Shown here: piece by piece, positions 3,961 through 20,933 of the stretch | Layout of the letters: each line of letters opens with the position of its first letter | Position numbering within the stretch: position 1 is the first letter of the stretch | Virus record (IMG/VR): IMGVR_UViG_3300025732_000296 | Location: 1-22,073 of that record | Direction: 5' to 3' (one strand) | Length of the DNA stretch: 22,073 nt | Source: a virus | Position numbers and translations under genes: made by a program | The notes under the pieces: model-generated | What the model was told of the DNA's origin: nothing | The model's database searches: none | Seen by the model: the letters and a program-made list of their open reading frames with translations, nothing else

Positions 3961-6464
3961 TCAATAAGGCCTGCAAGCTTTTGCCATCTTTCCATTATGT
4001 GAAGATCTGATGACGCTCTTGTGCTTTCGGTCTTTGCCTCATCGGCAGTTGCTATCCCCATGTCAATGAGAAATGACTTGAAGTCTTTCTTGTAACTGTC
4101 GGGAACCTTTGCCGTTATCTCGCTGTATGCATCAAGCTTGGGAGCTCCCGCGGGGTTTTGTGCGTATATCTTTAGTATTTTTTTGACCTGATCTTCATCT
4201 AGTTCAAACACGACCTTAAGCATCTCATGCTCTTTGTCGTTGAATGTAAGCACAACATTTCCGCTCTTAGACTTCTTTTTGAGGAAGTCGAAACCCTTTT
4301 TGACGCCATCGTCACCTGGCGAATCCTTCTGTGTAAAGTCTTGTTGCGCTAGTCCAAGCTTGCCTTTGATAACAGCCATCTCTTCTGCATTTGTATCGTC
4401 AAGAACAGGCAAACTAGAAGGATCAGTCTTCAACTTCTTCTTGAAATCTTTCAAAGCCTTCGAAGCCGTTGCAGTTGACCTTGTCGGCGTCCTGATGTGA
4501 GCGTCTTCGAACATGAGGTTTGTTAGAGACGGGACGTAGCTGTCTTTGATTGAAATAATGGTCACAGGCCCCTTGCCAGGAGTCGTTGAACTTCCCCTTT
4601 CCTTCTTTTGCCTCTTGTCATCAATCTCAAATGTCATCTTTTTGACATCATCTATCGTTACCCCGTCTGCAAAGTCAAAGTACTTTCCTTGGACCGTTTC
4701 CATCCACTTGATGATTGCCGCCTGTATCTTTGGTTTGTCACCGACAGGTGCGAATTTCCTTGGAATCATTGGCGCAATTATGAAACCACCCTGCTTGACG
4801 ACCTTGGTCTCACACTTCACAAGAGCCTGATCGTCTGAGGGGATTTCGACTACGATAGTCTCAGGCTTTCCTACAGGAGGCTCCTCAGTCGGACCTTCCT
4901 GTGCAATCTCCTGTACGACCTCATCAGGCTTGATGTCCTTAAACTGATCTATTGCTGCCTGAAAGTATGAAGTCCTGCTGTTCTTTGCACCATAGCTTCT
5001 AAGAGATTTTATTGCAGCAGCGGAAGCAATTAGTCCCACACCAATGCCGACACCCCACGGTCCAAGAGCAGTGAGTTTTGCCGCTATTGGACCCTGCACT
5101 AACTTGGTCACGCCCGCTTTTGCTGCGGCCGTCTGCACACTTGTCACAATTGGGCCAACATCAAGTTGCAATTTATCGAGTGGCAACTTATGTGTTCCAC
5201 TGCTCTTCATCACGCTTGTCAGTGCCGCAATGTTCTTGGGCCCGTTTCCTGCTGCGATGGCCTTCGCAACTCCTGCAAAGGCCTGGTCAACACCTGGGAC
5301 ACCCTTGCCAAGGACACCGCTGCTGTGCATTGCCTTGAAGACCTCAAGCCCGCCTTCTACGGTGGGCTTACCATTCAAGGCACCGTAAGCCTTAAAGAGA
5401 TCCTCGGCGCTTGAGTTCCAAGTAACTCCTGCTTTAGGATTCAAGTTTTGAATAAGTGCGACCATGCCTTTGTCGCCGTTCTGACTCGTGACATTTCCAA
5501 GAGCCTTTGTTGCAAACTGAGCAGCCTGGCCTGGTTCCTGAGACAAAGTACTTGTCATCTTGATAAACCAGTCTGAGCTGGTTATGAGGCCTGCCGCTGT
5601 TGCACCAAGGCCAAGTCCTGCAAGTATGCCCACAGCAACGTTACTCTTGAGCCCCTTCATTGAAGATGTCGTGCGACCTTCAGCACCTACGTCATCTTCT
5701 TCTACTTCGCTGAGCATTGACTCTGCAAGCGTGGGCATGTGGCTTGCCCTACTCTCTAAGTTGTAAGTGTAACGATCCTTGAGCTCTCTATCAAAGAACT
5801 GCATTGCCTTGCGAAGCTTTTTGATGATGACATTGGCATCTTCAACGCTGATTTTCGGTTTGTCATTCTTGGGAGGTTCACTTCCATCAATGCCGGGAGC
5901 ACCTGCTGCCTTCCTAACACTGTCATAGTACTGTGTGAATTTTGTCATTGCATCGGTGAACTGTATCGTTTCACCGCCATTGGGCCAATCCGGAATCGCT
6001 TCCTTGACCTGGTCAATGAGTTCTTTGACAGTTTGATTTCCAAGCTTTGCAAAGAGCTCCTGATTGTCACTTATGGCATCCTCATATGCTTGCCTGTACT
6101 TTGCGCTTTCCTTCTCTCCACCACCGCCAAAGATCCACCAGTTTCTCGACTTTGTGCCACCAAAGATCTTGCCAAACGTCTTTGCAAGTCCTCCACCAAC
6201 AAGGTCTGCGAGACCGCTAAAGAACCCCTCGTTGAGTTGGTCAGGTGATTCAACCAAGAGCAGCCTTACATTGCCCATCTGCGACCTGAAGCATGCTTCG
6301 CTTAGCGTGGTCTTTTTACCTGCAATGTGTTCCTTGAGTATGTCAATTGCGACCCTACGCCAGATCCTTCTTTCTGCGTCATTTGACCAAACGTAGTCCT
6401 GACCCTCACGGATCATATTCTCAAGGAACTGGATTCGCTCTTCTCTTCTCATGTGGTTGCCCAT
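3957..6464 (-). CDS. large probable virion or ejected protein
   Basis: An 835-residue protein starting at ATG 6464 with GGAG seven bases upstream. The N-terminus is a charged helix, 'RIQFLENMIREGQDYVW', resembling the terminal tag seen on other proteins here. About residues 85-115 are Gly-rich. Two hydrophobic, Gly/Ala-rich stretches, near 278-297 ('VAVGILAGLGLGATAAG') and 472-492 ('GPWGVGIGVGLIASAAA'), could cross or insert in a membrane, with a low-complexity helical region between them. The rest is charged and Lys-rich. The C-terminus ends 'IMERWQKLAGLID', nearly matching the end of the HAD protein at 11776-12699. Size, tags and membrane-like segments suggest an internal virion or ejection protein, but no family was recognised. 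Confidence 0.72.
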   Translation of the reverse strand: MGNHMRREERIQFLENMIREGQDYVWSNDAERRIWRRVAIDILKEHIAGKKTTLSEACFRSQMGNVRLLLVESPDQLNEGFFSGLADLVGGGLAKTFGKIFGGTKSRNWWIFGGGGEKESAKYRQAYEDAISDNQELFAKLGNQTVKELIDQVKEAIPDWPNGGETIQFTDAMTKFTQYYDSVRKAAGAPGIDGSEPPKNDKPKISVEDANVIIKKLRKAMQFFDRELKDRYTYNLESRASHMPTLAESMLSEVEEDDVGAEGRTTSSMKGLKSNVAVGILAGLGLGATAAGLITSSDWFIKMTSTLSQEPGQAAQFATKALGNVTSQNGDKGMVALIQNLNPKAGVTWNSSAEDLFKAYGALNGKPTVEGGLEVFKAMHSSGVLGKGVPGVDQAFAGVAKAIAAGNGPKNIAALTSVMKSSGTHKLPLDKLQLDVGPIVTSVQTAAAKAGVTKLVQGPIAAKLTALGPWGVGIGVGLIASAAAIKSLRSYGAKNSRTSYFQAAIDQFKDIKPDEVVQEIAQEGPTEEPPVGKPETIVVEIPSDDQALVKCETKVVKQGGFIIAPMIPRKFAPVGDKPKIQAAIIKWMETVQGKYFDFADGVTIDDVKKMTFEIDDKRQKKERGSSTTPGKGPVTIISIKDSYVPSLTNLMFEDAHIRTPTRSTATASKALKDFKKKLKTDPSSLPVLDDTNAEEMAVIKGKLGLAQQDFTQKDSPGDDGVKKGFDFLKKKSKSGNVVLTFNDKEHEMLKVVFELDEDQVKKILKIYAQNPAGAPKLDAYSEITAKVPDSYKKDFKSFLIDMGIATADEAKTESTRASSDLHIMERWQKLAGLID

Positions 6465-6479
6465 TCGAAGCTCCGTTCA

Positions 6480-6531
6480 ATAACTATTCATCGCTATTGT
6501 CTACAGTTATCTGTTTCACAGTTCATAGTTA
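6480..6531. promoter_or_regulatory. divergent promoter region with inverted ATAACTAT / ATAGTTA
   Basis: The gap between divergent genes (6465-6536) holds ATAACTAT at 6480-6487 and the inverted copy ATAGTTA at 6525-6531. The same pair occurs in the other divergent gap at 10500-10530. On the minus strand the first copy reads ATAGTTAT and lies 16 bases before the 835-residue gene's start, at the right distance for a T4-style late-promoter element with a very short leader. The role as a phage late promoter is inference. Confidence 0.4.
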
Positions 6532-6536
6532 GCATC

Positions 6537-6767
6537 ATGCCAAGATGGAGAAAACAGGGGGATCCGGCTGCGCCCGGCCATGACACTACTTCGAAGGATG
6601 TGAGGAAGAGGAAGGGTCACGATAGGACTTATGGCAAACAGGATGATATGCTTGACAGGCCAGGTGTCATCGTTGAGCCAGACGTTCGCAAGAAGGTGTC
6701 CGACTATCTCAGCACCATGGGACTTCGTGAATGGGTGAGAGAAATTCTTTTGACGATGAACAAATAG
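6537..6767 (+). CDS. small basic protein with C-terminal helix tag
   Basis: A 76-residue protein starting at ATG 6537. The N-terminal half is strongly basic and polar ('PRWRKQGDPAAPGHD', 'VRKRKGHDR') and is probably disordered or nucleic-acid binding. The C-terminus, 'GLREWVREILLTMNK', is an amphipathic helix of the same LRxxIRxxL type seen at the ends of other proteins in the window. There is no clear Shine-Dalgarno, and the possible promoter element ATAGTTA ends only five bases before the ATG, so translation may be leaderless or the start may differ. Function unknown. Confidence 0.6.
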   Translation: MPRWRKQGDPAAPGHDTTSKDVRKRKGHDRTYGKQDDMLDRPGVIVEPDVRKKVSDYLSTMGLREWVREILLTMNK

Positions 6768-6770
6768 CTA

Positions 6771-6799
6771 TTCCATTTTGTGATTCCTTGTGGTACTAT
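6771..6799 (+). promoter_or_regulatory. sigma70-like promoter TTCCAT-17-TACTAT
   Basis: TTCCAT at 6771-6776 and TACTAT at 6794-6799 are separated by exactly 17 bases, with TGTGG immediately before the -10. The same -35, spacer length and TGTGG appear at 13982-14010. It would drive the gene at 6823. Confidence 0.65.
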
Positions 6800-6822
6800 T
6801 AAAATGTAAGGAGGACCAAAGG

Positions 6823-7260
6823 ATGGAATACGACCACACCAACCCCTGGCACCGACAGTTCCTCGCCACCCACCTCCGCGAGGCCCTCTCCACCTCGGGT
6901 TTCACTCTCCAGCCTACACGTCGTGCAGGTGAGGAGGAAGTCTGGGCCCGTCCGGTGGAAGGCACCAAGTTCAAGATCACGGTCTACACCACCATCGTCG
7001 GCGATCAGGTCCGCTCGGTCGGCACCGACGCCATCCGCGTGGTCGGCCTCTACGAGAACGGTGGCAAGGTGAAGGCGAAGGTCGGTCGTTCCTCCACCCA
7101 CCGCCGCGGCAAGGTGGATGCGATCAAGAATCGCATGCTTGACAAGGCGCGGTTCACCTGGAAGGAGTGTCGTAGCGGTGGAAAGTGCCACTGTGGTGCA
7201 CCCACTCTCACCTCTAAGAAGGGGAATGCCTACTGTGCCGACCTCTGCTGGAAGGCCTGA
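6823..7260 (+). CDS. hypothetical protein with C-terminal zinc-binding motif
   Basis: A 145-residue protein starting at ATG 6823 behind GGAGG at 6810-6814; an upstream in-frame codon at 6790 lies before the ribosome site and is rejected. The middle reads as a beta-rich domain ('KFKITVYTTIVGDQVRSVG', 'AIRVVGLYENGGKV'), followed by a basic stretch and a Cys cluster: 'KCHCGAPTL' and 'YCADLCWKA', enough for one zinc ion. Codons end mostly in C or G, as in the ligase gene and unlike many neighbours, which suggests strong expression. It has its own promoter. Family not recognised. Confidence 0.75.
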   Translation: MEYDHTNPWHRQFLATHLREALSTSGFTLQPTRRAGEEEVWARPVEGTKFKITVYTTIVGDQVRSVGTDAIRVVGLYENGGKVKAKVGRSSTHRRGKVDAIKNRMLDKARFTWKECRSGGKCHCGAPTLTSKKGNAYCADLCWKA

Positions 7261-7886: not shown

Positions 7887-7888
7887 TA

Positions 7889-7937: not shown

Positions 7938-7954
7938 CTATTCCTGGAGGCCAA

Positions 7955-9271: not shown

Positions 9272-9558
9272 TTGACAGATTCATTACTTTCAAGGAGCCC
9301 ACTATTGTCGAGGATGAGTTCGATGGTAGTAATCTCGTGAGGAAGGGCGGCATCATCTTCCGAAGTCATGTTGTCATGACGGACGGTAAGCACTTTGCAA
9401 TATCCGACGCACAGCATGGCCACGGCATGTTTGCCATCAATGAGACCCTAGTGTTTCCCTGTGACGAGGATGGCAACGTCACCGATTGGACAGAAGAACC
9501 GTGGGGAGGACGTGATGTAAGAACTGAAGAGGTTGTCAGCCAGATGAACCGAGGCTAA
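9268..9558 (+). CDS. hypothetical beta-rich protein
   Basis: A 96-residue protein starting at ATG 9268 inside the ligase stop codon, so it is probably translationally coupled to the ligase. The sequence is acidic with several short strands ('GIIFRSHVVMTDG', 'FAINETLVFPCDEDG'), and no motif I recognise. It ends four bases into the convergent gene at 9555. Its codon use is less biased than that of the ligase. Confidence 0.65.
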   Translation: MIDRFITFKEPTIVEDEFDGSNLVRKGGIIFRSHVVMTDGKHFAISDAQHGHGMFAINETLVFPCDEDGNVTDWTEEPWGGRDVRTEEVVSQMNRG

Positions 9559-10478
9559 CCATCACGCTGCTCAACTCCCTGCTTTTGTGCTGGGGCATCT
9601 TCTGATCCTGAGCCTGTCGTGAGGGCAACTGCAAGTCCTGCCACTTGTGCTGCCTTCTTTGTGACACTCACGCCCTGCATGATTGCATCCTTGATGCCTT
9701 CAAAGAAGGAAGATGCCTTCTTCATCAGGTCAGAGATAAGGGCAGCGGCAACACCAGCCTCGGCAAGTGTTCTTGCGAGTGCCCTTGATACCTCAGCGAT
9801 CGCCTCACCAACCGCAGTGCCAATGTGTGCACCCTTTACAGCTGATAAAACCCCTTCAGTTGCTGCAAGTCCTGCATGTGCACTCTGGATTGAAGCGATT
9901 GCACCTTTCACACTGTATACAGCAAGGATGCAGGTCACAGCAAGGTCGATGACTTTTGCAATCTTCAGGAAAGCATCCTCACCCTTGGAAGAATCTGCAT
10001 ATGCCTTGTATGCATCCATTCCATCCGGATCACCCATTGCACAGAGAATCAGGAAGAGAACCTTTACTATCTTAGCATATGTGTTCTCAATCATGTGATG
10101 ACCCTTCTGATAGAAGGCGTCACCTGCTGCCTCGACCTTCTTTGCCCAAGCAAGCTTGTCAGACTGATCTGCTTTGCTGAACTTTGATGCGAGCGCTACA
10201 TAGCCCTTTACGATGAGAGCAATGGCTTTCGTTGCCCATTTCCCAAGTGTTGGCAGTGAAAGACCGAATCCAAGTACAAGCGCTGTGAGGGCTTCGTTCT
10301 TCTCCTCAATCTTGTCTTCAATCTTGTCAAGAGCTGAGTCAAGTTGGCTCTCAAGAGATTCGAGTCCGCTTAGTGCAGTCGCAGCACTTGCACCTGCCTT
10401 TGAACCGTCCTCCGTTGCCTGTTCAATGATGAGCCATTCCCTGATCAGGCTTCTGACGACAATCTCATTGCTTCTCAT
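9555..10478 (-). CDS. helical, membrane-active-looking protein with N-terminal tag
   Basis: A 307-residue protein starting at ATG 10478 with AGGAAA upstream. It opens with 'VVRSLIREWLIIEQ', the best example of the LRxxIRxxL-ΦxE tag, which would be cut after IIE if a T4-type prohead protease acts on it. A coiled-coil-like stretch follows (about residues 40-65), then several Ala/Gly/Val-rich helices (about 66-95, 136-150, 166-186, 212-245, 276-292) that could associate with membranes, and a Gln/Asp-rich tail. There is no signal peptide. The pattern fits an internal virion protein released into the cell envelope at infection, similar in character to the 835-residue protein at 3957. Family not recognised. 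Confidence 0.7.
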   Translation of the reverse strand: MRSNEIVVRSLIREWLIIEQATEDGSKAGASAATALSGLESLESQLDSALDKIEDKIEEKNEALTALVLGFGLSLPTLGKWATKAIALIVKGYVALASKFSKADQSDKLAWAKKVEAAGDAFYQKGHHMIENTYAKIVKVLFLILCAMGDPDGMDAYKAYADSSKGEDAFLKIAKVIDLAVTCILAVYSVKGAIASIQSAHAGLAATEGVLSAVKGAHIGTAVGEAIAEVSRALARTLAEAGVAAALISDLMKKASSFFEGIKDAIMQGVSVTKKAAQVAGLAVALTTGSGSEDAPAQKQGVEQRDG

Positions 10479-10499
10479 TCATCACCGTTTCCTGTGTTG

Positions 10500-10530: not shown

Positions 10531-10572
10531 TACGGGACTGTGGAAACCCCACTCCCGGAGGAGGACTCAAAC

Positions 10573-11073: not shown

Positions 11074-11576
11074 GCATTCAAGAACTCGATGAGCTTCGTC
11101 GACTGGAGAATGAACTTCAGTCAGGACTTGACTTTTATAGCAAGTTCGTTGGCACAGCCAACCCAAAGCACAAGGGCATTCCGTATATGGCTGCTGCAGA
11201 TACTTTCTCGACAAGCACACTTCATGCTTATGGGAAATTTTGGAGACTCTTCAAGCAAGTGTGCCAAAAGTCGGGATTGACTTCTACTTGGGATAAAGCC
11301 ACGGGTTACGGTGGCTGGATCTACCATCATAGGCGCGCTATGGGAATTCTCTTTCCTCGAGCGCCTGGCATCACAAAGATCGTCGATGGTTACCCAACGA
11401 TAGTTCCTGATAAGACTGTTAAGGATCCTGAACGTGCCTCAAAGGCACTACCTCACCTTCAAAAGATGCTTGATCTGATCAATCGTGAGCTCATAAACAT
11501 TGAAGGAACTCTTACCGATGATCCACAATTCGCCTCGGTTGAGGAAGCAGTCATACGGAGACTTTTCAAGCTATGA
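11070..11576 (+). CDS. hypothetical protein
   Basis: A 168-residue protein starting at GTG 11070 in a four-base overlap with the preceding stop. It is mixed helical and Trp/Tyr-rich in the middle ('YGKFWRLFKQVCQK', 'TGYGGWIYHHRRAMG'), with no signal peptide or membrane segment. The C-terminus 'ASVEEAVIRRLFKL' is an amphipathic helix, a weak version of the terminal tag. It sits between a secreted protein and a pilin-like protein, which may hint at a link to the host surface, but nothing in it shows that. Confidence 0.65.
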   Translation: MSIQELDELRRLENELQSGLDFYSKFVGTANPKHKGIPYMAAADTFSTSTLHAYGKFWRLFKQVCQKSGLTSTWDKATGYGGWIYHHRRAMGILFPRAPGITKIVDGYPTIVPDKTVKDPERASKALPHLQKMLDLINRELINIEGTLTDDPQFASVEEAVIRRLFKL

Positions 11577-11779
11577 ATACAATAATGAGTTTTCTGCAAG
11601 AGGAAGAGGGCCAGTCCACAGTCGAGTACATGCTGCTCATTAGCGTGATCGTTATTGCGATTGTTGCAGCGGCCTACGTCTTCATCGATCCCTTCAAGCA
11701 GGGCGTTCTTGATCTTGCAAACGACGTGAAGAGGATACTTAGTGATGGAAAGATTGGTCGTGTAGGGACAACGAGATGA
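11573..11779 (+). CDS. Flp-type (class III signal peptide) pilin-like protein
   Basis: A 68-residue protein starting at ATG 11573, overlapping the previous stop by four bases. The N-terminus 'EEEGQSTVEYMLLISVIVIA' is the type IVb/Flp pilin signature: a charged leader ending in Gly, then a Glu at position +5 next to Tyr, then a long hydrophobic helix through 'VAAAYVF'. Prepilin peptidase would cut after Gly13. The remaining 35 residues are short, as in Flp pilins. Many Myxococcota genomes carry proteins of this exact layout. In a phage operon it could be a captured host gene acting as a decoy pilin or altering pili; that is inference. The HAD gene follows with an ATGA overlap. Confidence 0.78.
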   Translation: MNTIMSFLQEEEGQSTVEYMLLISVIVIAIVAAAYVFIDPFKQGVLDLANDVKRILSDGKIGRVGTTR

Positions 11780-12699
11780 AGAAAATGAGACTCAGTGAGC
11801 TCCTCTTCGAGGATACAATACCCGGGAATGCACCCGCAGAAAAACAGGTGCACGTCTTTGACTTCGATGACACTCTTGGCGAGACTTCAAATGCCAATGG
11901 AGTGATGCTTTACAAGGACGGAAAGCCTGCGCACAAGACCCAAAAGGAAGTAAGAGACTGGTTGCAGTCATTAGGCGTCTCTGCAAAGGACATCCTAGAG
12001 CCCGGCATTGTCTCGATTAAAGAGAGAGAAGGTGGCATGGCTGTTTACCTCTCCTCACTTGGTCTTGCTAGAATACAGAAGAACTTTCCATCGGCAAAGC
12101 AGGGTGTGACGACCGGATTCGCCGATAAGGTCAATCAGCCCGGTGAGACGATACTCATCGACTTCACACCGTCATCCAGCACAGATGTAAAGACTACAAA
12201 GCCCATCAAGTCGACCATCGATAAGATGAAGAGGGCGAAAGATAGTGGCTCTGATACGATCGTCATCACTGCAAGAAAGGCAACGGGCACAGGAATTGAC
12301 TTTCACGGCAATCCTGTCGACGCCACTAATGCAGAGGACATGGAAGAGTTCCTTGCTGACAAGGGGGCAAGGCCTACTGACGGAGTGATGGGAGTGACCG
12401 GACAGAACAAGGGCCATGCCATCATCAACAAGTACGTCAAGGCAGGCGAGGGGGCGCCAGAGGAGATTCACTTCTACGACGACCTACAGAAGAACACAGA
12501 CGAGGTCGAGGATGCGGTTGCCGAGAAGGTCCCATCGGAGCTCTATATCTATGGGCCTGGAGAGTTTGCACATGGTGGTGCAGACCCAGAGAGGCCGAAC
12601 AAGGCGTTCCCTCCTGCAAAGACCAAGGCTGAGTCGCGCAGAAGGCAGGACCACCGTATTGTCGAAAGATGGGTCTACCTAGCAGGAATAAACAGATGA
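11776..12699 (+). CDS. HAD-superfamily phosphatase with terminal tags
   Basis: A 307-residue protein starting at ATG 11776 in the stop of the pilin-like gene. HAD motifs are visible: motif I 'VFDFDDTLGE' (nucleophile Asp29, Asp31), motif II 'IVITARKA', Lys in 'QNKGHAIINKY', and motif IV 'IHFYDDLQKN'. The family includes phage phosphatases and 3'-phosphatase domains of polynucleotide kinase; no kinase domain is present. A long insertion separates motifs I and II. The N-terminus 'MRLSELLFED' fits the tag with a LFE cut site, and the C-terminus 'IVERWVYLAGINR' nearly repeats the end of the 835-residue protein. Substrate unknown. It may be packaged. Confidence 0.82.
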   Translation: MKKMRLSELLFEDTIPGNAPAEKQVHVFDFDDTLGETSNANGVMLYKDGKPAHKTQKEVRDWLQSLGVSAKDILEPGIVSIKEREGGMAVYLSSLGLARIQKNFPSAKQGVTTGFADKVNQPGETILIDFTPSSSTDVKTTKPIKSTIDKMKRAKDSGSDTIVITARKATGTGIDFHGNPVDATNAEDMEEFLADKGARPTDGVMGVTGQNKGHAIINKYVKAGEGAPEEIHFYDDLQKNTDEVEDAVAEKVPSELYIYGPGEFAHGGADPERPNKAFPPAKTKAESRRRQDHRIVERWVYLAGINR

Positions 12700-13583
12700 G
12701 AAACTACGAGAAGCACCTGAGAAACGTGATCAGGGAGAGTTTGTTGAACGAGTGGGACATCATGCATGCGCTGATGATGTCACCAGAAAACTCTATCCAG
12801 GGACTCTACCAGTTCTTTAGGGACGATGTTTTTGGACCAACGCAGCAGGAAAGATTGAAACGTACAGGCGACGATAAGATCATCGACAGGTACCACACGT
12901 TCCTTGGCACTCTCCACCTGACGCCTGAATACAAGCTCGTCTGGGAGAACTACAAGAAGGCGCAACGTCTTCATGCAAGCATGGACAGCGAATTTGATCG
13001 TGCCCGAGACATTCAGCATCCTGTTGGAAGGGCCTTCAGCAAGCTGAAGAACAAGGTGATGATGAAGCTTGATGAGATGGAGAAGACGTTATCTCCTGAG
13101 AACCGTGACCTCTGGAAGTCCAGCATTGACCAGGAGAGGAAGAGCTTCGAGAAGATATTCAGCAACTGGTATGCAGGAAAGATGACGACCGGAAGAGTTC
13201 TCGGTCTTCTCGATCCTCGTGGCATCGTTGAGTCACGGAAGCGTGGGCGGAGGATCTCAGAGGCTGCAGAGATGTTCGCAGGCAGGGACCTGGAGCAGCT
13301 CAAGATGAGTGAGTTCCTCGCAGCCCTTGAGACAGCCGACATGGATCTCGAGGATGCCGGTTGTCCTGCTGAGTCTGATGCTAGGGCCATGCTTGAGGAG
13401 CTGATGTCTATGATTGACAGCGGCCGAGAGAGACCGGACTTCAACGTGTCCTCATTCACCTCATTTGCGGAAAATGTCATACAGGCTGTGAGGTCATGCC
13501 GTCACATCGACAGGAGCGTTGGCCATAGGGTCGCTGCTGATCTTGAGCTTGCCTTGTCTCAAGCAGGCGAGATTGATAGATAG
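12696..13583 (+). CDS. hypothetical helical protein with N-terminal tag
   Basis: A 295-residue protein starting at ATG 12696, overlapping the HAD stop by four bases; an earlier ATG at 12669 lies inside the HAD gene. It opens 'EKHLRNVIRESLLNEW', a clear LRxxIRxxL tag with an LNE site. The body is charged and helical, with a likely coiled coil around residues 90-160 ('KLKNKVMMKLDEMEKTL'). No catalytic motif recognised. It closes the 10573-13583 operon. A structural or packaged role is suggested by the tag only. Confidence 0.72.
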   Translation: MRNYEKHLRNVIRESLLNEWDIMHALMMSPENSIQGLYQFFRDDVFGPTQQERLKRTGDDKIIDRYHTFLGTLHLTPEYKLVWENYKKAQRLHASMDSEFDRARDIQHPVGRAFSKLKNKVMMKLDEMEKTLSPENRDLWKSSIDQERKSFEKIFSNWYAGKMTTGRVLGLLDPRGIVESRKRGRRISEAAEMFAGRDLEQLKMSEFLAALETADMDLEDAGCPAESDARAMLEELMSMIDSGRERPDFNVSSFTSFAENVIQAVRSCRHIDRSVGHRVAADLELALSQAGEIDR

Positions 13584-14827: not shown

Positions 14828-14865
14828 AGTCACCAAATTGTTGTACCATTCTAACTGGAGTTCAA

Positions 14866-15069: not shown

Positions 15070-15568
15070 CCTCAAGAAGAAGGAGACCGTTGAGGTCATC
15101 GATGCGCCTTCCGAGGCTGCAACCGAGCCTGTGCAGTTTGTCACAATTCAAGAGCTCATGCAGCAGAGTGGCATGGCATTTGCACTAAGTGAGGATGTTG
15201 AGAGTCCTGGGCTTGAACCTGAGGTCGATGAGTCTCCTACGTGGACTGTGAAGATCGACGGGCTCCAGGAGATGGAGGCAGGTGGAACCAAGTTCTCTGT
15301 CTTCACGCCAGGAGAGGCATCATCCGGCCAGATGGTGATTGAGTTCTTGACAAAGTCTGGTGTCAATAAGGGACTGTTCGCTTGGATGACCAAGCCATCC
15401 GAACGCCAGGTCCAGATGTCAGTCAGCGATCACGATGGCAATGCCATTGAGACGTGGCGGATGAAGGGTGTCCCTGTCGCACTGGCAGTTGATGAGCTTG
15501 ACCGTGAATCAAAGGACCCATGGTACACAACCCTTCAACTTGCAGTGCGTGAGATCCAGATCACCTGA
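15053..15568 (+). CDS. hypothetical protein, acidic N-terminus and beta-rich domain
   Basis: A 171-residue protein starting at ATG 15053, behind AAGGAG near 15040; a longer reading from 14999 lies within the previous gene. A basic start 'PRKASLKKKETVEV' is followed by an acidic linker to about residue 60, then a beta-rich domain to the end: 'WTVKIDGLQEM', 'SGQMVIEFLTKSG', 'QVQMSVSDHDGNAIETWRM', 'TLQLAVREIQIT'. The domain's strand order recalls tail-tube-like folds, but I would not assign that. Its 3' end overlaps the convergent gene at 15561 by eight bases. Confidence 0.65.
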   Translation: MPRKASLKKKETVEVIDAPSEAATEPVQFVTIQELMQQSGMAFALSEDVESPGLEPEVDESPTWTVKIDGLQEMEAGGTKFSVFTPGEASSGQMVIEFLTKSGVNKGLFAWMTKPSERQVQMSVSDHDGNAIETWRMKGVPVALAVDELDRESKDPWYTTLQLAVREIQIT

Positions 15569-16370
15569 GCGTGAGCCTGACTATCCTACGCAGGGCCTCT
15601 CTGAGGCCCGTTGCACTTTTAAGAGCGGCAATCGCCTTGGCAGCCTCCACGGCAGTGTGCGGGTCCTGGAGGTACCTTGCGATGTACTCCTCGAATCCCG
15701 AGAGTCTTCCTGAGACATCCTGCACACCTGCCAATATGGATACTAAGTCCTCGAAAGTGGTGATCTCAGAGGGATTCGCAGGGATACCGAGGGTGGAAAC
15801 GATGACATTCGCGTCCTCAGTTCTTGGTACGGTAACCACACCGTCCTCGGTCACCTGGATGCCACCAGGATAGGAGATGGTGATCTTCGTGCCGGGTCTC
15901 TGTTCAGACCGGATCTTCGCGAGGTAGGCAAGGAGAAGGTTGCGGTAGACACCCTTCACCCCGGACCCTGTCCCCGACATCAGCCAGCCGGTCTTCTCGG
16001 GGTCACCGGAAAGCATGAGGTCGACCTGAACGAACCTGTCCTGTGATCCCATGATTGGAATCATGAGAGCAATGTTCTGACCGACGAGCTTTGCCTTATC
16101 AGGACCGATGATTCCCTGGATGTTTCTCAGGAGACCGTCCTTGATCGCCTTGAGGGCCTTTGGGTCGTCCATCGGGACTGGTCCTACGGCGATGTCGAGG
16201 TCACCGGACATCTCTTTCTTGCCGGTGGAACCGAGTGGCACGAATGCATCAATTCCGACGGGCTTCAGGATCTCGTGAAGGAGGGCATACAGGGTCGGCC
16301 CGACCTCGTCCTTCCTGATTCCTGTCGTAAGTGGGGCGCCGTCTGGTCCCTTGAATGCCTCTCCTCCCAT
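15561..16370 (-). CDS. nucleotidyltransferase (Pol-beta superfamily)
   Basis: A 269-residue protein whose ATG 16370 shares a base with the preceding stop (TAATG). The superfamily signature is clear: 'PLGSTGKKEMSGDLDIAVG' with G47-S48 and metal-binding Asp57 and Asp59, and a third acidic residue Asp117 in 'FVQVDLML'. Such enzymes move a nucleotide onto RNA, protein or small molecules; the substrate is not evident. The C-terminus 'TGLREALRRIVRLTLR' has the LRxxIRxxL tag form. It is last in a four-gene operon with a ligase-like and a cytidylyltransferase-like gene. Confidence 0.8.
   Translation of the reverse strand: MGGEAFKGPDGAPLTTGIRKDEVGPTLYALLHEILKPVGIDAFVPLGSTGKKEMSGDLDIAVGPVPMDDPKALKAIKDGLLRNIQGIIGPDKAKLVGQNIALMIPIMGSQDRFVQVDLMLSGDPEKTGWLMSGTGSGVKGVYRNLLLAYLAKIRSEQRPGTKITISYPGGIQVTEDGVVTVPRTEDANVIVSTLGIPANPSEITTFEDLVSILAGVQDVSGRLSGFEEYIARYLQDPHTAVEAAKAIAALKSATGLREALRRIVRLTLR
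15593..15609 (+). terminator. hairpin at convergent gene ends
   Basis: GGGCCTC (15593-15599) and GAGGCCC (15603-15609) form a 7-bp perfect stem with a 3-base loop, followed on the plus strand by TTGCACTTTT. It lies 25 bases after the plus-strand gene ends, within the last codons of the minus-strand gene. It could terminate plus-strand transcripts. Confidence 0.45.
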
Positions 16371-16588
16371 TACCTGTACTCCTCAACGAACCCCATCATC
16401 TCGTTCTGAAGCTCGATTAGCGCCTGTTCGTGGTCGCTCTGGTTGGCCATCTCAGAGTAGAACTCATGCATTGCATTGTGCAGGTTCTCCTGTGCTGACA
16501 TCAGCGACTCGTTGACTCTCTTGCCTCTCTTGAACTTCTTGGCCTCGTCTGCGATGATGCGACGGAGGTGTGACTCTGTGATTCTCAT
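16370..16588 (-). CDS. small helical protein with N-terminal tag
   Basis: A 72-residue protein; ATG 16588 shares a base with the preceding stop and its own stop overlaps the next start, so translation is coupled on both sides. It begins 'RITESHLRRIIADEAKKF', the tag form, followed by 'RVNESLMSAQENLHNAMHEF' and a long acidic helix. Nothing catalytic is visible. It may be an adaptor for the neighbouring enzymes or a packaged peptide. Confidence 0.68.
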   Translation of the reverse strand: MRITESHLRRIIADEAKKFKRGKRVNESLMSAQENLHNAMHEFYSEMANQSDHEQALIELQNEMMGFVEEYR

Positions 16589-17865
16589 TATCCAATCCTT
16601 CCGAATGGTAAGTATCTCTTTCGAGACTCATTCTGCGATATCCTCGCTGGGGTCTTACCGTAGGCGAAGAATCCGCGGAGCTTGTTGATGGGAGTGAAGA
16701 GTCCGGTGAGCTTCCGGGTCTTTCCCTTCCACCGGAAGACGATTCCCTCAACCGCCTTCTCGAATGCCGCCTCGTCACCGATCCTCTCGAGTGCAACCCT
16801 GATGGACTCGGTCTGGGATGGGTCGGCGATGAGCCTTCCACCCCTCACTGCGTCTCGGGTCTGCCGGACGAAGGATCGAAGTGCGTCACCTGACTCGGTG
16901 CGGTTGGAGGAGAGGACGAACTCCAGGTTGCGGAAGACCTGGACGGCGAGCTTCTGGAGGATCCTCTCGATGGGGATGATGGCCTCGTCTACGTATGGGC
17001 CGGACTCCATTCCCTGGACCTTCTCCCAGACGCCAGGGCCCACTGCCTTCGCATCCTTCGCGGAGAACGCCGCCTTCTCACCGCGGCCGAGTCGAATTGC
17101 GACCCTTGCGGCGACATCCGGACTCATCCCATCGGATTCCAGACGGGTCTTCACGAGTCCCACGATGAGGTCACCCATGGTGGAGGAATCTCCCACACCG
17201 GCCTCTGCCATGAGGGCATCTAGCTCAGATTCGAGAGAGGATGCGACCTGGTCGGAGTTGAGGACCTTCTGCAGCTTAAGAATGGGAACCTCACCCATCG
17301 GGACTGCAACGTCAAGGGAGGAAGCCGAGCCCAGGAACTGCCGATAGGCCTCCTGGTCCACCTGACCGCCGAGTGCCGGATCCATCGGGTAGGCCCTCAC
17401 GAATCGGATGGTAGGCCTGTCATAGACGATGGTGTTGGGGTTCTCTGGGAGCATCATGAGTGACTCCACCACCACACCACCGTCCCTGAAGAGCCGGGAG
17501 GTGAGACCCGGATCCACGTCTGCCGCTGCCTGGAGGGAGGCGTACGCCCTCTTGAACGCGTCCCTCACCTGTGGGCGGTCGGCGTACTGTGCCTCGTAGT
17601 CGGCGATCTTCTTGCCACCGCGCTGGACGGATGCCCAGGAGGCTCCCTTGGAGAACGTCTCCACCTCTCCGTTCCTCACGGTGAATGTGAGGTTCTGCCC
17701 GTCCATCTTCTCCTCGACATCCTCCACCTGGGCATCGAGGAGTGCCCTGATGGCCTCCTTGAACTCCGAGAGGGGCATGTCGAGGTCCTCGTAGAAGTTG
17801 AGGATGTGGGCCTCGGGACCGTTCTCCAGCATGAGCATCTCACGGATAAGCTGTCTGATCATCAT
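16588..17865 (-). CDS. ligase-like covalent nucleotidyltransferase
   Basis: A 425-residue protein starting at ATG 17865 and overlapping the upstream stop by four bases. It opens with the tag 'IRQLIREMLMLENG'. Motif I of the DNA/RNA ligase and capping-enzyme superfamily is seen as 'EEKMDGQNLTF' with Lys53, followed by 'RNGEVETFSKG'. Near the end 'EGIVFRWKGKTRKLTGLF' (Glu373, Lys385) matches motifs IV and V. Related phage proteins have an unresolved role, and DUF6267-type proteins share the KxDG box. It probably forms a Lys-NMP intermediate; the substrate is unknown. No OB domain follows, and a basic tail ends the protein. Confidence 0.72.
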   Translation of the reverse strand: MMIRQLIREMLMLENGPEAHILNFYEDLDMPLSEFKEAIRALLDAQVEDVEEKMDGQNLTFTVRNGEVETFSKGASWASVQRGGKKIADYEAQYADRPQVRDAFKRAYASLQAAADVDPGLTSRLFRDGGVVVESLMMLPENPNTIVYDRPTIRFVRAYPMDPALGGQVDQEAYRQFLGSASSLDVAVPMGEVPILKLQKVLNSDQVASSLESELDALMAEAGVGDSSTMGDLIVGLVKTRLESDGMSPDVAARVAIRLGRGEKAAFSAKDAKAVGPGVWEKVQGMESGPYVDEAIIPIERILQKLAVQVFRNLEFVLSSNRTESGDALRSFVRQTRDAVRGGRLIADPSQTESIRVALERIGDEAAFEKAVEGIVFRWKGKTRKLTGLFTPINKLRGFFAYGKTPARISQNESRKRYLPFGRIG

Positions 17866-18596
17866 CCCACCAGTATCATGGTTCTGATTGTCTTGCGAAG
17901 GGTGGACTCACAGAGCCCCCTGTAGAGGATGTCTATCACCGCCGCCTTCTCCTCAGGGCTGTAGATGGGTGGGAGGAAGCGAGTGATCGCCTCTGGGTTG
18001 CGGGATGCGATGGAAGCCCGAACCTCGGAGCCTCGGACAAGGTTTCTTGCCCTCACCTCTTCTCGACTGCAACCCGGGTGGAAGGACTGGACTGCGTTGA
18101 TGATTCTCGCATCATCGCCATCCGCCATACCCGTGTCGAAATGGAGGGTCCCGTCCTGTAGAGTCGTGCCATAGTACCTCGGTCCCTTCACAGGGTCATC
18201 GGCATAAGCCAGATACTCTCCCACCGTCTCCTGGTCACCGTAGAGAGTCACCTCGTCGATGCTGTTCACGTCGATTCCATAGTCGGAGTAGCGAAAGAAC
18301 CTGGGAGCGTCGAGAACTCCCGCAAACGTCTGTATGGCTTCGAAAGCCATCACAATGGGTGTCGGCCTCGCCTTGATGACATTGACGTTAGGCATCTCCC
18401 TCTCGATGGCACCCTTTGCGATCTCGAAGACCTGTTCTGCCATCTCCTTCGTGTAGAGGTAGTCTGAGCCCTTCTTTCTCTCGGCGATGCCGTAGAAGAG
18501 GAGGACCTCATCGTTCTCTGCCGAGGCTAGTGCGAGCTTTGAGAAGTGACCTGATGTGAACGGCTTGAATCCGCCGCCGAAGATTCCAATACGCAT
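17862..18596 (-). CDS. cytidylyltransferase / nicotinamide-nucleotide adenylyltransferase-like enzyme
   Basis: A 244-residue protein starting at ATG 18596 with TTAAGG upstream. The N-terminus 'RIGIFGGGFKPFTSGHF' is the nucleotide-binding loop of the HxGH nucleotidylyltransferase family, with TSGH in place of HxGH. A Rossmann fold continues through 'NDEVLLFYG' and 'NVNVIKARPTPIV'; 'GSEVRASIASR' near residue 193 fits the second nucleotide-binding motif. Such phage enzymes often serve NAD salvage or sugar-nucleotide synthesis, which cannot be told apart here. The C-terminus 'CESTLRKTIRTMILVG' is a tag-like helix. It heads the operon that runs down to 15561. Confidence 0.8.
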   Translation of the reverse strand: MRIGIFGGGFKPFTSGHFSKLALASAENDEVLLFYGIAERKKGSDYLYTKEMAEQVFEIAKGAIEREMPNVNVIKARPTPIVMAFEAIQTFAGVLDAPRFFRYSDYGIDVNSIDEVTLYGDQETVGEYLAYADDPVKGPRYYGTTLQDGTLHFDTGMADGDDARIINAVQSFHPGCSREEVRARNLVRGSEVRASIASRNPEAITRFLPPIYSPEEKAAVIDILYRGLCESTLRKTIRTMILVG

Positions 18597-18666
18597 GCCT
18601 TAAAGTATACTCAATGACGACATTGAACAATCACTTGCATCAGAATATGATGATTCAGGAGACAAA

Positions 18667-19005
18667 ATGAGCACTCGTTGCACCATTGCGTACGACCAGA
18701 ATGACTTTCATCTCTATCAGGAGTGCTTCGAGAACGACAATGTCTACCTCCAGCTCGACGGTGGTGGGTGGGCAGCGAGCCTCGACACTGCCAATGTCGA
18801 CTGGCGGGAGGACACAGGGTCTCGACCAAAGCTTGGGCTTCGGATCGATGTCACCCTCTGGCGTAAGATCGTTGAGGGCTGGTTGGTGTCGCAGTGGGCG
18901 AACGATCCCTCCCGTGATCACAAGAAGGAAGAGTGGGACCCCGAGGCTTTCAACGCCTGGATCGAGTCCATCAAGCTAAAGAAAGAGGAGAAGAACAATG
19001 AGTGA
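18667..19005 (+). CDS. hypothetical protein
   Basis: A 112-residue protein starting at ATG 18667 with CAGGAG upstream. It is acidic, with a beta-rich first half ('CTIAYDQNDFHLYQECF', 'NVYLQLDGG') and a helical second half with several Trp residues. It ends in a Lys/Glu tail. The first half recalls small proteins that respond to 'RCNIVVxDG'-type phage families, in which a similar 'xTRCxIxxxDxxFHLYxE' start is common, but function is unknown. The region 18601-18666 between the divergent genes holds AGTATACT at 18605-18612. Confidence 0.66.
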   Translation: MSTRCTIAYDQNDFHLYQECFENDNVYLQLDGGGWAASLDTANVDWREDTGSRPKLGLRIDVTLWRKIVEGWLVSQWANDPSRDHKKEEWDPEAFNAWIESIKLKKEEKNNE

Positions 19006-19333
19006 CGTTCTACCAAAGTGGCTTCATCACATCGACGAGGCCGACATCACACGCCTTCTGCAATCGGAGAAGGGAATCATCAGGCAGTTCGCGCAGTGGG
19101 TGAGTGAGCCCAATCGAGTGCAAGCTCTACAGAATGAGGTCACCCGCCTCGCACAAGAGAACCTGCGGCTCCGAACTGTGATGATGGCTGCACACCAGGA
19201 GATTGTCGAGCACTGGGAATCCCACTGCGATGATGAGGGATACGGTCCCCAGAATCTTGTCAGGAACCTGAAGGATGGGACCGGATACTATCCTGGTTAC
19301 GCTGAAGAGATCTCCAAACAGAGGGAGGACTAG
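18998..19333 (+). CDS. hypothetical coiled-coil protein
   Basis: A 111-residue protein starting at ATG 18998 and overlapping the previous gene by eight bases. Residues 45-70 ('ALQNEVTRLAQENLRLRTV') form a leucine-zipper-like coiled coil, so it is probably a dimer. The C-terminal part is rich in Gly and Tyr. No catalytic motif is visible. It is coupled to the next gene, whose GTG start shares the last base of its stop. Confidence 0.66.
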   Translation: MSDVLPKWLHHIDEADITRLLQSEKGIIRQFAQWVSEPNRVQALQNEVTRLAQENLRLRTVMMAAHQEIVEHWESHCDDEGYGPQNLVRNLKDGTGYYPGYAEEISKQRED

Positions 19334-19752
19334 TGTCGCCAGAACTCGAGAACAAACTCATCGAGAAGTACCCTGAGATTTTCACCCGAAAGAATGAGAG
19401 TGGTGAACGTGAGGTTGTCAGCTACGGTGTCTCTGTCGGAGACGGTTGGTACAACATCATTGACTGCCTCTGCTCCAGCGTGCAGAACCACCTCAACCAC
19501 CACAGGTCAAGGGGACACCTCACGCCCGCCGAATTCGAGGAGCAGGTCCAGACGAAGGCAGCGCAGGTGAAGGAGAAGTTCGGGGGACTCCGCTTCTACG
19601 TGGACAACTCTGATGAGTATGTTAGGGGAATCATCCAGATGGCAGAGGCAATGTCTGTCAGAACATGTGAGGAGTGTGGTAACCCTGGCAACCCTGTTAA
19701 GGGTGGTTGGGTGAAGACCCTCTGTGTTCCCTGTGGTGGGAACAGGAAGTGA
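19333..19752 (+). CDS. zinc-ribbon phage protein of unknown function
   Basis: A 139-residue protein starting at GTG 19333. It has the pattern of a common phage family: 'LIEKYPEIF', 'GDGWYNIIDCLCSSVQ', 'QVKEKFGGLRFYVDN', 'IIQMAEAMSVRTCEECG', ending with a zinc ribbon 'CEECGNPG' and 'TLCVPCGG' (two CxxC pairs). The length is usual. The family often lies among small early genes and its role is not established. It overlaps its neighbours on both sides. Confidence 0.75.
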   Translation: MSPELENKLIEKYPEIFTRKNESGEREVVSYGVSVGDGWYNIIDCLCSSVQNHLNHHRSRGHLTPAEFEEQVQTKAAQVKEKFGGLRFYVDNSDEYVRGIIQMAEAMSVRTCEECGNPGNPVKGGWVKTLCVPCGGNRK

Positions 19753-20018
19753 AGATCGAAGTCGGGGTCCTCGTGTCATTCTGTCCCGTAGAGACGTCAG
19801 TCGACCTCACGTTCGCTGAGGGTCTCATCTCTCGAAATCTCATGGACAGGATCATGCCTGGGAAGGGATACTTTCCCCAACAGGGTGAGGTCGGACTCAT
19901 AGTAGGCGGCCCCGAGAAGGACACGGGTGGCAGGTTCACCATGTGGGAGGTCTACGTGGGAGGACGCAACCTGTGGTTCACCGAGGACCACCTGGTGCCG
20001 AAAGATCTGAATAGTTAA
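19749..20018 (+). CDS. small SH3/KOW-like protein
   Basis: An 89-residue protein starting at GTG 19749, sharing GTGA with the previous stop; an upstream ATG at 19707 lies within the zinc-ribbon gene. It reads 'KIEVGVLVSFCPVE', 'QGEVGLIVGGPEK', 'RFTMWEVYVGGRNLWF' and ends 'EDHLVPKDL', again the strand order of the small barrels in this window, with an inserted helix. Role unknown. Confidence 0.66.
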   Translation: MKIEVGVLVSFCPVETSVDLTFAEGLISRNLMDRIMPGKGYFPQQGEVGLIVGGPEKDTGGRFTMWEVYVGGRNLWFTEDHLVPKDLNS

Positions 20019-20039
20019 CACTCCGATTGGAGAGAGATC

Positions 20040-20270
20040 ATGATTACCACAAAGCCCCTGCTCGCAAAGCCCTCTAAGCTGGGCCACAAGGGGTTCCAGT
20101 ACCCCGACTTCACAAGCACAGGCGTCCTCATTCCCAAGGAGACTCCGCTCACACAGCTTCCCTGGATTCCCAGTCTGGGTTGGACTGCATGGGCCTGGGC
20201 TGATGATCGAGGGACCCGGGTCGTGTGGCTCAAGGATGACAACAAAGTGAAAGAAGTATTGTCAACCTGA
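20040..20270 (+). CDS. small hypothetical protein
   Basis: A 76-residue protein starting at ATG 20040 behind GGAGAGAG. It is Pro- and Trp-rich, with 'DFTSTGVLIPKE' and 'GWTAWAWADDRGTRVVWLK', suggesting a small beta-barrel. Its stop lies in a short hairpin CAACC/GGTTG (20263-20279), and the promoter for the tRNA genes starts within its last codons. Confidence 0.6.
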   Translation: MITTKPLLAKPSKLGHKGFQYPDFTSTGVLIPKETPLTQLPWIPSLGWTAWAWADDRGTRVVWLKDDNKVKEVLST

Positions 20271-20287
20271 TACGGGTTGATTATATT
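20259..20287 (+). promoter_or_regulatory. sigma70-like promoter upstream of tRNA-Arg
   Basis: TTGTCA at 20259-20264 and TATATT at 20282-20287 are 17 bases apart, a good match to the bacterial consensus. The tRNA-Arg begins 41 bases after the -10. Confidence 0.62.
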
Positions 20288-20307
20288 ACTAATGTTGGTT
20301 GGAACAA
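20276..20307 (+). repeat. tRNA-leader repeat, copy 1
   Basis: About 32 bases beginning GTTGATTATATT and ending GTTGGTTGGAACAA nearly match 21953-21985, with three substitutions and one inserted A. Both copies lie 20-25 bases before a tRNA, so this is a shared tRNA promoter and leader. Confidence 0.75.
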
Positions 20308-20327
20308 AACGAATCAACCAACGAAAT

Positions 20328-20404
20328 GTCCTCGTAGCTCAGCTGGATAGAGCAATTCTTTCCTAAAGAATAGGCCGCCTGTTCGAACCAGGCCGAGGAC
20401 GCCA
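20328..20404 (+). tRNA. tRNA-Arg (anticodon CCT)
   Basis: A complete cloverleaf: acceptor GTCCTCG/CGAGGAC, D arm with GCTCAGCTGGATAGAGC, anticodon stem ATTCT/AGAAT around a loop with CCT at 20362-20364, T stem GCCTG/CAGGC with TTCGAAC, then discriminator G and an encoded CCA (20402-20404). It reads AGG codons. Confidence 0.93.
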
Positions 20405-20408
20405 TCTT

Positions 20409-20503
20409 GAACATGGACGGCGGGTGTACAGTATCCCATGCAAATGGGGAGCACAGCCGAACCGGGAAGGCAGACGCTGTACGAGCTCCGGGTCTCCATG
20501 TTC
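20409..20503 (+). ncRNA. predicted structured RNA between two tRNAs
   Basis: GAACATGGA (20409-20417) pairs perfectly with TCCATGTTC (20495-20503), a 9-bp outer stem starting four bases after tRNA-Arg ends. Inside, CCCAT/ATGGG (20435-20448) closes a GCAA tetraloop, and GAGCACAGC (20449-20457) pairs with GCTGT and GCTC (20476-20488) in a second hairpin. GTACAG (20426-20431) can instead pair with CTGTAC (20477-20482), which would form an alternative fold. It lacks the tRNA T loop. The function is unknown; possibilities are a processing element or a decayed tRNA. Confidence 0.55.
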
Positions 20504-20512
20504 TTTCAAATC

Positions 20513-20586
20513 GCGGGCATGGCATATGGGTTGTGCACCAGCCTTCCAAGCTGGATAACCGGGTTCGAATCCCGGTGCCCGCTCCA
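20513..20586 (+). tRNA. tRNA-Gly (anticodon TCC)
   Basis: A complete cloverleaf: acceptor GCGGGCA/TGCCCGC, D stem GCAT/GTGC, anticodon stem CCAGC/GCTGG with TCC at 20545-20547, T stem CCGGG/CCCGG with TTCGAAT, then T plus an encoded CCA (20584-20586). It reads GGA. Confidence 0.94.
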
Positions 20587-20593
20587 AAATAAA

Positions 20594-20614
20594 TCCAGCA
20601 TATGTACTGCTGGA
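20594..20614 (+). promoter_or_regulatory. hairpin covering a ribosome binding site
   Basis: TCCAGCA (20594-20600) and TGCTGGA (20608-20614) form a 7-bp stem with a 7-base loop. The GGAGG at 20612-20616 that serves the ATG at 20622 is partly inside the stem, so the hairpin could limit translation. It begins eight bases after tRNA-Gly. Confidence 0.5.
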
Positions 20615-20621
20615 GGTTGAT

Positions 20622-20933
20622 ATGAAGACATCTGAGTCACTATTGCGAAACATCATCCGTCAGGAGCTGAAGAACGAAATGGCTACCCGCGGTCCACTCA
20701 CACCAGAGCAGAAGGCACAGAGAGCCGCAAACAAGCTACGAAGGGAAGAGGAGATGAATGCATGGCGTGCCGAGAGTGATGCACGCCAGGCCGCACTGGA
20801 TGCTGTTCCCATGGAGAAGCGCCGGTACGGTTACGGCAACGAGGAGATCTCCTACGAGGAGTATATCAACCACCTCCGCAACGGTGATCCCTACGCATTC
20901 CGTGACGACACCGGTAAGCGCTTTACTCGCTAA
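20622..20933 (+). CDS. small charged protein with N-terminal tag
   Basis: A 103-residue protein starting at ATG 20622 behind GGAGG. The N-terminus 'SESLLRNIIRQELKNEM' is the terminal tag in a clear form. The rest is a long charged helix ('QKAQRAANKLRREEEMNAW') and a Tyr-rich end 'YEEYINHLRNGDPYAF'. No enzyme motif is visible. It lies between tRNA genes, which is unusual for a protein that may be packaged. Confidence 0.68.
   Translation: MKTSESLLRNIIRQELKNEMATRGPLTPEQKAQRAANKLRREEEMNAWRAESDARQAALDAVPMEKRRYGYGNEEISYEEYINHLRNGDPYAFRDDTGKRFTR

Follow-up and report, generated by a model that had tools for sequence, protein, structure and literature searches.

Terminal peptides shared with head-core proteins probably direct RNA-repair-type enzymes to the prohead in a group of T4-like phages

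The virus fragment IMGVR_UViG_3300025732_000296 of IMG/VR (22,073 bases), called the window below, encodes a series of proteins that share short terminal peptides while their bodies are unrelated to one another, as the initial annotation had recognized. The first of these peptides (tag 1) is a helix of about 20 residues of the form [IL][TS]E.xLRxIIREEL..., which usually ends with Phi-x-E and is found either at the N-terminus (N-tag) or at the C-terminus (C-tag). All eight copies that the initial annotation had named were confirmed by reading the DNA, including one in each of the four genes of the 15561-18596 operon. What it regarded as looser forms of the same helix on an 835-residue protein and a HAD-type protein proved to be a different tag (tag 2), which is the C-terminal peptide of phage scaffold proteins, [DE]RWxxLAG[IL]. 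The tagged genes are as follows, where a slash indicates a predicted cleavage site.

3957..6464, minus strand: 835-residue protein; scaffold-type C-terminal peptide HIMERWQKLAGLID at 3960-4001
6537..6767, plus strand: 76-residue protein; C-tag GLREWVREILLTMNK at 6720-6764
9555..10478, minus strand: 307-residue protein with hydrophobic segments; N-tag MRSNEIVVRSLIREWLIIEQ; VVRSLIREWLIIE/Q at 10419-10460
11776..12699, plus strand: HAD-type phosphatase (PNK-like), 307 residues; leader MKKMRLSELLFE/D at 11776-11814; scaffold-type C-terminal peptide RIVERWVYLAGINR at 12655-12696
12696..13583, plus strand: protein of unknown function; N-tag MRNYEKHLRNVIRESLLNEW; HLRNVIRESLLNE/W at 12714-12755; profile score 18 bits
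15561..16370, minus strand: Pol-beta-type nucleotidyltransferase, 269 residues; C-tag GLREALRRIVRLTLR; tag-like helix TGLREALRRIVRLTLR at 15564-15611
16370..16588, minus strand: 72-residue protein; N-tag MRITESHLRRIIADEAKKF at 16532-16588; profile score 22 bits
16588..17865, minus strand: RNA-ligase-like protein, 425 residues; N-tag MMIRQLIREMLMLENG; MMIRQLIREMLMLE at 17824-17865
17862..18596, minus strand: NMNAT/cytidylyltransferase-like protein, 244 residues; C-tag GLCE/STLRKTIRTMILVG at 17865-17918
20622..20933, plus strand: 103-residue protein; N-tag MKTSESLLRNIIRQELKNEM at 20622-20681; profile score 29 bits

The nearest relatives of the window in IMG/VR are G001 (43.7 kb), G002 (32.7 kb), and G003 (38.7 kb), whose RNA-ligase-like gene is 97-98% identical; G004-G008 are more distant relatives, reached via the adenylyltransferase gene, and distant ligase homologues exist in the huge phages LR756500 and LR756508 and in Microcystis phage Mel-JY01. 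Genes were called by a simple open reading frame (ORF) rule, and several of the tag counts given below include orthologues. The G001 orthologue of the 307-residue protein with hydrophobic segments bears the same tag, the G003 orthologue of the 76-residue protein ends with KLREWVRLILRES, and the 72-residue protein has orthologues in G002 and G003. The gene at 12696..13583 starts at 12696 rather than 12669, with its ATG overlapping the HAD stop codon, and its G001 and G003 orthologues have longer N-termini that align only from residues 42-49.

The frequency of the helix tag was evaluated with an 18-column profile built from the tags of other contigs, without window sequences, which was scanned over the first 30 positions of each gene at a threshold of 10 bits or more, with internal positions of the same proteins as the background. 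Three window genes reached the threshold versus 0.08 expected, and this count is the independent one because the tags of the other contigs sit in the training set. For those contigs, the counts were 5 versus 0.16 in G003, 10 versus 0.35 in G008, and 27 versus 1.7 in LR756508 (484 kb). At the opposite terminus, the core helix occurred within 22 residues of the C-terminus 16 times, three of them in the window, versus 2.7 expected among 2,032 proteins. The module is more than a helix, as [IL][TS]E[SN] precedes LR in many N- and C-terminal forms (MRITE-SxLR and GLSE-NTLR, for example). No match of the helix tag was found in T4, the cyanophages MED4-213 and ACG-2014b, or XacN1. Helical termini are common, and the tags might be regarded as amphipathic helices that converged without any common function, but the strong enrichment over internal positions, the absence from T4, the cyanophages, and XacN1, and the conservation of [IL][TS]E before LR in N- and C-terminal forms alike leave such convergence with a next to negligible probability. 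A tblastn search of the phage collection with the 23-residue consensus gave no match, as expected from the shortness of the query. In IMG/VR, 0 contigs matched a DNA pattern for MKITxxLRxIIREE although fetched loci did match a looser one, and no conclusion was drawn from this.

Identical tag residues in G003 share the same codon at a frequency of 0.58 versus 0.37 expected, and therefore some of the copies there spread as DNA and not all are independent. This agrees with the idea that what spreads is the 5′ end of a gene, as an expression or gene-swapping module carried by DNA recombination, the peptide itself being inert. However, codon sharing is near expectation in LR756508 (0.47 versus 0.395) and G008 (0.41 versus 0.36), C-termini and the interior of a fusion protein carry the module as well, and the upstream sequences of the tagged genes that were inspected look unrelated, all of which makes an inert peptide extremely unlikely.

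The initial annotation had noted that its hypothesis would fail if the motif were equally frequent among cytoplasmic replication proteins. Names were transferred by BLASTP (E 1e-8) from two cultured phages, Flavobacterium phage immuto and Mel-JY01. None of the 132 homologues of proteins named for replication, nucleotide metabolism, chaperone function, the shell, or the tail carried the tag, versus 109 of 2,022 other genes (Fisher p = 0.0015), and the untagged homologues include those of sheath, tube, and baseplate-wedge proteins. Among the tagged proteins of the relatives are a Nudix hydrolase in G001, an RNase_T-type exonuclease in G006, and a zeta-toxin/kinase-like protein in G008.

The second peptide points to the phage head. 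In both the 835-residue protein, which ends with ERWQKLAGLID (terminal stretch, IMERWQKLAGLID), and the HAD protein, which ends with ERWVYLAGINR (terminal stretch, IVERWVYLAGINR) and has both ends conserved in G001 and G003, the peptide [DE]RWxxLAG[IL] lies within the last 15 residues. The scaffold, encoded by the ORF directly upstream of gp23, ends with EVNRWAVLAGINNE in G007, SRWQKLAGIIK in immuto, ERMKKLAGIVK in Mel-JY01, SRMQKLADIS in LR756508, and ERIKRLAGL in RM378. A strict signature, R[WMI]..LA[GD][ILV], matched nowhere inside 2,154 proteins (381,531 positions), while it was found at the C-termini of all five scaffolds, the two window proteins, and the HAD orthologues. With four gp23 sequences as queries, 80 loci were recovered from IMG/VR, 65 of which had a readable upstream ORF; it ended in the scaffold signature in 61 contigs and in a near variant in the other four. 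The two window genes have no neighboring gp23 in the window; their products carry only the peptide and are not gp22 scaffold proteins. Neither protein has a tblastn relative in annotated phages. The 835-residue protein had no relative in the IMG/VR scan either, and one surfaced only after the gp23 scan: a 753-residue protein of locus L188 (24.6% identity over 411 residues, E 1.7e-10), encoded slightly upstream of the scaffold and gp23, that ends with ELNRWAVLAGIK (ELNRWAVLAGIKPLLRG). Single proteins carrying both tags are encoded at L145:3933 and L148:8011, near gp23, and at L211:14755 in G034. A conserved protein of ∼346 residues is encoded directly downstream of gp23 (L145:3933-4976 and L176:7955-8992), with an N-tag and a scaffold-type C-terminus in L145; it is a promising candidate for an internal protein of general occurrence.

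The helix tag also has counterparts among head genes. In about 20 gp23 contigs, a small gene slightly upstream of the scaffold starts with the tag form M.KLSRxxLKxLVKECLVEILAE/G, as in MAKLSRTALKGLVKECLVEILAE/G and MKLSRTELKQIIKECLVEILAE/G, and the G007 gene at 20081-20587, located between the protease and the scaffold, belongs to this group. The core gene between the portal and the protease in LR756508 starts with MNKEKLKDVIRKEVKSALNE/ISQTGNVAGYQTPFAF; the related genes of immuto and Mel-JY01 occupy the same position. In LR756508, 24 of 27 N-tags fall within 135-225 kb, the 90 kb that hold the protease, the scaffold, and gp23, the major capsid protein (MCP) (Fisher p = 9e-19). Both tags have their archetypes in head-core proteins. 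The initial annotation had also recommended a search for a gp21-like protease, and this was found in seven relatives: a gp21-type S77 protease is present in six of six fuller relatives searched (Mel-JY01, immuto, RM378, LR756500, LR756508, and LR756511) and also in G007, which encodes a T4-like terminase, a portal, an S77 prohead protease (E 2.6e-26), and gp23 (E 1.4e-65). The S77 prohead protease gene of LR756508 (L052:4571-6295) is apparently split by an intein with a LAGLIDADG endonuclease. G018, which has gp23 and comes from the same metagenome as G001 (3300025872), was considered as the head-bearing part of the window's group and rejected, as it has no gene in common with the window or G001-G003 (E 1e-5).

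T4 gp21 cleaves after L/I-x-E (PMC9026906). As we read the conserved site, gp23 propeptides in the phages studied here appear to end at a sequence of the same kind, namely QLLRE/Q, QIVSE/A, QLLKE/A, and QLISE/A. Phi-x-E follows the N-tag at offsets of 9-23 in 75% of 83 tags versus 47% in shuffled sequences (sd [standard deviation] 5, maximum 60, 500 shuffles), and it precedes the C-tag in 10 of 16 cases versus 8.7% at a similar distance from the end in other proteins (p about 1e-7, although some are orthologues). Predicted Phi-x-E sites part tag from body at either end. In the ligase, leaders and body vary independently: its conserved start is preceded by the leader MMIRQLIREMLMLE/NGPEAHILNFYED in the window, LLRNLIRESLVTE/GLEAHILNFYED inside a fusion protein of G004, KKVATLSE/QAELESHILNFYED in G006, AKKFITE/QDEPDLTKHIWHFYED in G007, INNNIIAE/GGLGGHMNHPFDD in Mel-JY01, and MKFLKSYEEFLNENLILE/GGSYGHLNHPFED (MKFLKSYEEFLNE) in LR756500, the last being close to T4 MKTYQEFIAE; the leaders in the five relatives are unrelated, and each places Phi-x-E ahead of the body. 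In the G034 ligase the helix sits instead at the other end, the C-terminus (NESLLRNYVREFVGGMG). No LRxxIREEL tag was detected in LR756500 (462 kb), where six proteins start with MKTYQEFIAE-like sequences versus 1.3 expected, albeit with small numbers, and several N-termini at L098-L121 read MK(F/Y)hKxYEEFLNE, near the T4 capsid targeting sequence. Immuto gp193 and gp194 (L049:10730-12030), neighbors just upstream of the terminase, share the N-terminus NFxLxxFLxENKLTxNxxxLKE, which is perhaps another targeting leader.

The NMNAT-like, ligase-like, and nucleotidyltransferase genes form a cassette. They are separate in the window and its close relatives, the latter two are fused in G006 and G007, and all three are fused in G004 into a protein of 933 residues (L007:10001-12799; G004 64942-67743) that has LVTE/GLEAH and SLSE/GGNAF at its domain junctions and the tag at one junction and at the C-terminus; from this arrangement, the fusion is a candidate polyprotein for the prohead protease. 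The window ligase has the features of an ATP-dependent RNA ligase, with KxDG motif I (KMDG), EGxV motif IV (EGIVF...KLTG for motif IV/V), and the ligase fold, while its Pfam RNA_ligase match is below the cut-off. Its AlphaFold2 model is of middling confidence, with pLDDT (predicted local distance difference test) < 50 for residues 1-25 and 60-90 for most of the body, and the fold matches ranked by E-value are headed by RNA ligases (archaeal, T4 Rnl1, and Naegleria) with TM-scores of about 0.2. The C-tag of the NMNAT-like protein is kept in G002, G003, G006, G007, and G034 and lost in G005 and G008. The AlphaFold2 model of the nucleotidyltransferase (pLDDT 88.5) has its best fold matches in Pol lambda/beta; assignment as RlaP, which was considered, has no family match to support it, as the protein shows the Pol-beta/lambda fold only and no Pfam or PHROG match. 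The HAD protein matches PHROG polynucleotide kinase (1.3e-6) and DUF2608. Sequence searches of the PDB with the three enzyme alignments gave nothing usable.

The organization of the cassette raises the possibility that the tags are docking helices of a cytoplasmic RNA-repair complex with no role in the head, in which the C-terminal helix of NMNAT and the N-terminal helix of the ligase pair with each other and with partners, recalling an ancestral fusion. The cassette does stay together as neighbors or fusions, G004 fuses both enzymes with the same helix at the junction, and the helix of the nucleotidyltransferase runs on from its body. Docking helices would not, however, account for the same helix at the start of a conserved head-core gene and of about 25 small proteins around the head genes of LR756508, for Phi-x-E between tag and body, or for the scaffold-type C-termini, and we consider this explanation rather unlikely.

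Several observations weigh against prohead targeting. Neither the protease nor gp23 was found in the window or G001-G003, all of which are fragments, and a literature search gave no virion proteomics for any of these viruses, immuto included. Two of the five N-tags in the window (genes at 16370 and 20622) have no Phi-x-E in the usual register, and the Phi-x-E evidence is somewhat weakened by the fact that a helix-capping residue would also favor T/S-E there. The C-tag of the nucleotidyltransferase, which has no preceding Phi-x-E, is the weakest case among the window tags because it is modeled as the end of a single long helix, 240-268, continuous with the body. Orthologues of the enzymes without a tag exist in G005, G008, G020, and G024, where the ligase has neither an N- nor a C-terminal helix, and the tagged DnaQ/RNase_T-like exonuclease of G006 comes closest to breaking the pattern of the 132-homologue test. 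The clustering around head genes is not general, since in G034 (267 kb) the tags lie mostly at 180-204 kb and gp23 at 32-46 kb. Finally, immuto gp156 and Mel-JY01 WWT39506, with the helices LKKLIKEAV and IRAVIREEI, adjoin baseplate or tail-lysozyme genes. This last observation and the distance of the G034 tags from the MCP gene would fit targeting to the tail or baseplate of the virion instead of the head core, but the best archetypes are head genes, the scaffold terminus is the C-terminal tag, Phi-x-E is the signature of a prohead protease, and sheath, tube, and baseplate-wedge homologues carry no tag; a tail or baseplate destination is therefore very unlikely.

Taken together, the S77 proteases of the relatives, the absence of the tag from the 132 named homologues, the Phi-x-E statistics, and the head-core archetypes support the analogy with T4 capsid targeting drawn in the initial annotation, and both tags are quite probably prohead-targeting tags that constitute a two-ended system for loading RNA-repair-type enzymes. 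From this analogy we infer packaging, cleavage, injection, and a role as follows. The phage would be a member of the T4-like lineage, or share its head-assembly logic, with a gp21-type protease, a gp22-type scaffold, and a gp23-type shell. Two peptides, the LRxxIREEL...PhixE helix at the N-terminus of a small core protein and [DE]RWxxLAG[IL] at the C-terminus of the scaffold, are also borne by unrelated proteins and would carry these passengers into the prohead core during assembly, the helix by binding the scaffold core and the RWxxLAGI tail by binding the partner of the scaffold tail, which may be gp23 on its inner face or some other component of the core. Cleavage at Phi-x-E by the protease would then release the bodies inside the head before DNA entry; a fusion like the G004 cassette would in this way yield its separate enzymes within the head, and the freed bodies would be ejected with the DNA at infection. 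The passengers in the window would be the RNA ligase, the Pol-beta nucleotidyltransferase, the NMNAT-like adenylyltransferase, the HAD phosphatase, and several proteins of unknown function. Given these kinds of enzymes, the likely role is to equip the cell, from the very start of infection, with RNA-repair and nucleotide-handling activity that opposes defenses based on tRNA cutting or NAD depletion. Three tRNA genes (Arg-CCT, Gly-TCC, and Asn-GTT) lie at 20328-21609 of the window, near the tagged 103-residue protein and a thioredoxin gene, and phage tRNAs beside an RNA-repair cassette would fit a defense against tRNA cleavage.

RNA-repair-type enzymes are usually viewed as early-expressed counter-defense, and few parts of large phage virions are as poorly understood as the internal proteins, since these have only a short leader in common. 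We lean slightly toward a broader proposal that a large T4-like phage lineage loads RNA-repair and nucleotide enzymes, including a Nudix hydrolase and a kinase in the relatives, by means of interchangeable N- and C-terminal tags copied from core and scaffold proteins, in some members as one polyprotein for the prohead protease to divide, so that damage to host RNA and NAD would be countered before phage gene expression. If this is true, the enzymes arrive ready made, scaffold C-termini can serve as portable cargo tags, and sequence alone would suffice to list which proteins of uncultured T4-like phages are candidates for injection, on the present counts some 25-30 for a genome of 484 kb.

Two other window genes were recorded. 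A 68-residue protein at 11573-11779 (plus strand), MNTIMSFLQEEEGQSTVEYMLLISVIVIAIVAAAYVFIDPF..., has the look of a Flp/TadE-type pilin and has a relative in the equivalent position of G003. The gene at 2171-2623 (minus strand) encodes a SET-domain-like protein, RGVFAKRNYAKDELIERSP...YNHSSDNNSHW, and a similar frame exists at G003 32465-32734.

The closest known counterpart is the capsid targeting sequence (CTS) of T4, borne by IPI, IPII, IPIII, and Alt, which likewise is a short terminal peptide that is found on unrelated proteins, ends in L/I-x-E, is swapped among accessory proteins, and belongs to a phage group with a gp21-type protease (PMC9026906, PMC12373910). The CTS propeptides, which show affinity toward the core, are cut off by gp21, and Alt is cleaved at both ends (PMC9026906), while T4 internal proteins block restriction enzymes (PMC12373910). 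Unlike the T4 CTS, MKTYQEFIAE, the first tag described here is an LRxxIREEL helix of about 20 residues that is also found at C-termini, and the second is a scaffold C-terminus; resemblance to MKTYQEFIAE is limited to the ligase leader of LR756500, KSYEEFLNE, and, in a loose sense, the HAD leader. The passengers are RNA-repair-type enzymes, in contrast with the small restriction inhibitors of T4. The gp22-type scaffolds of T4-like phages have the same [DE]RWxxLAG[IL] at their extreme C-terminus, which here caps a non-scaffold HAD phosphatase and the 835-residue protein; the scaffold of XacN1 ends with MMKLAGIKG and T4 gp22 with VYAKVASRF. Many ejection proteins of phiKZ and SPN3US are likewise loaded into the head and processed by a gp21-like protease, while the phiKZ site is S/A-x-E (PMC9026906), unlike Phi-x-E here. 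The enzyme kinds are those of phage RNA-repair/NAD systems (RNA ligase, RlaP Pol-beta nucleotidyltransferase, PNK-HAD, and NadM/NadR), as described in reviews of such systems (PMC7824862, PMC9503650). The parts consulted report no targeting tag on RNA ligase, nucleotidyltransferase, or NMNAT (PMC7824862, PMC9503650), and they propose head packaging for ADP-ribosyltransferases (ARTs), Macro, NADAR, and Nudix proteins (PMC9503650, PMC7824862).

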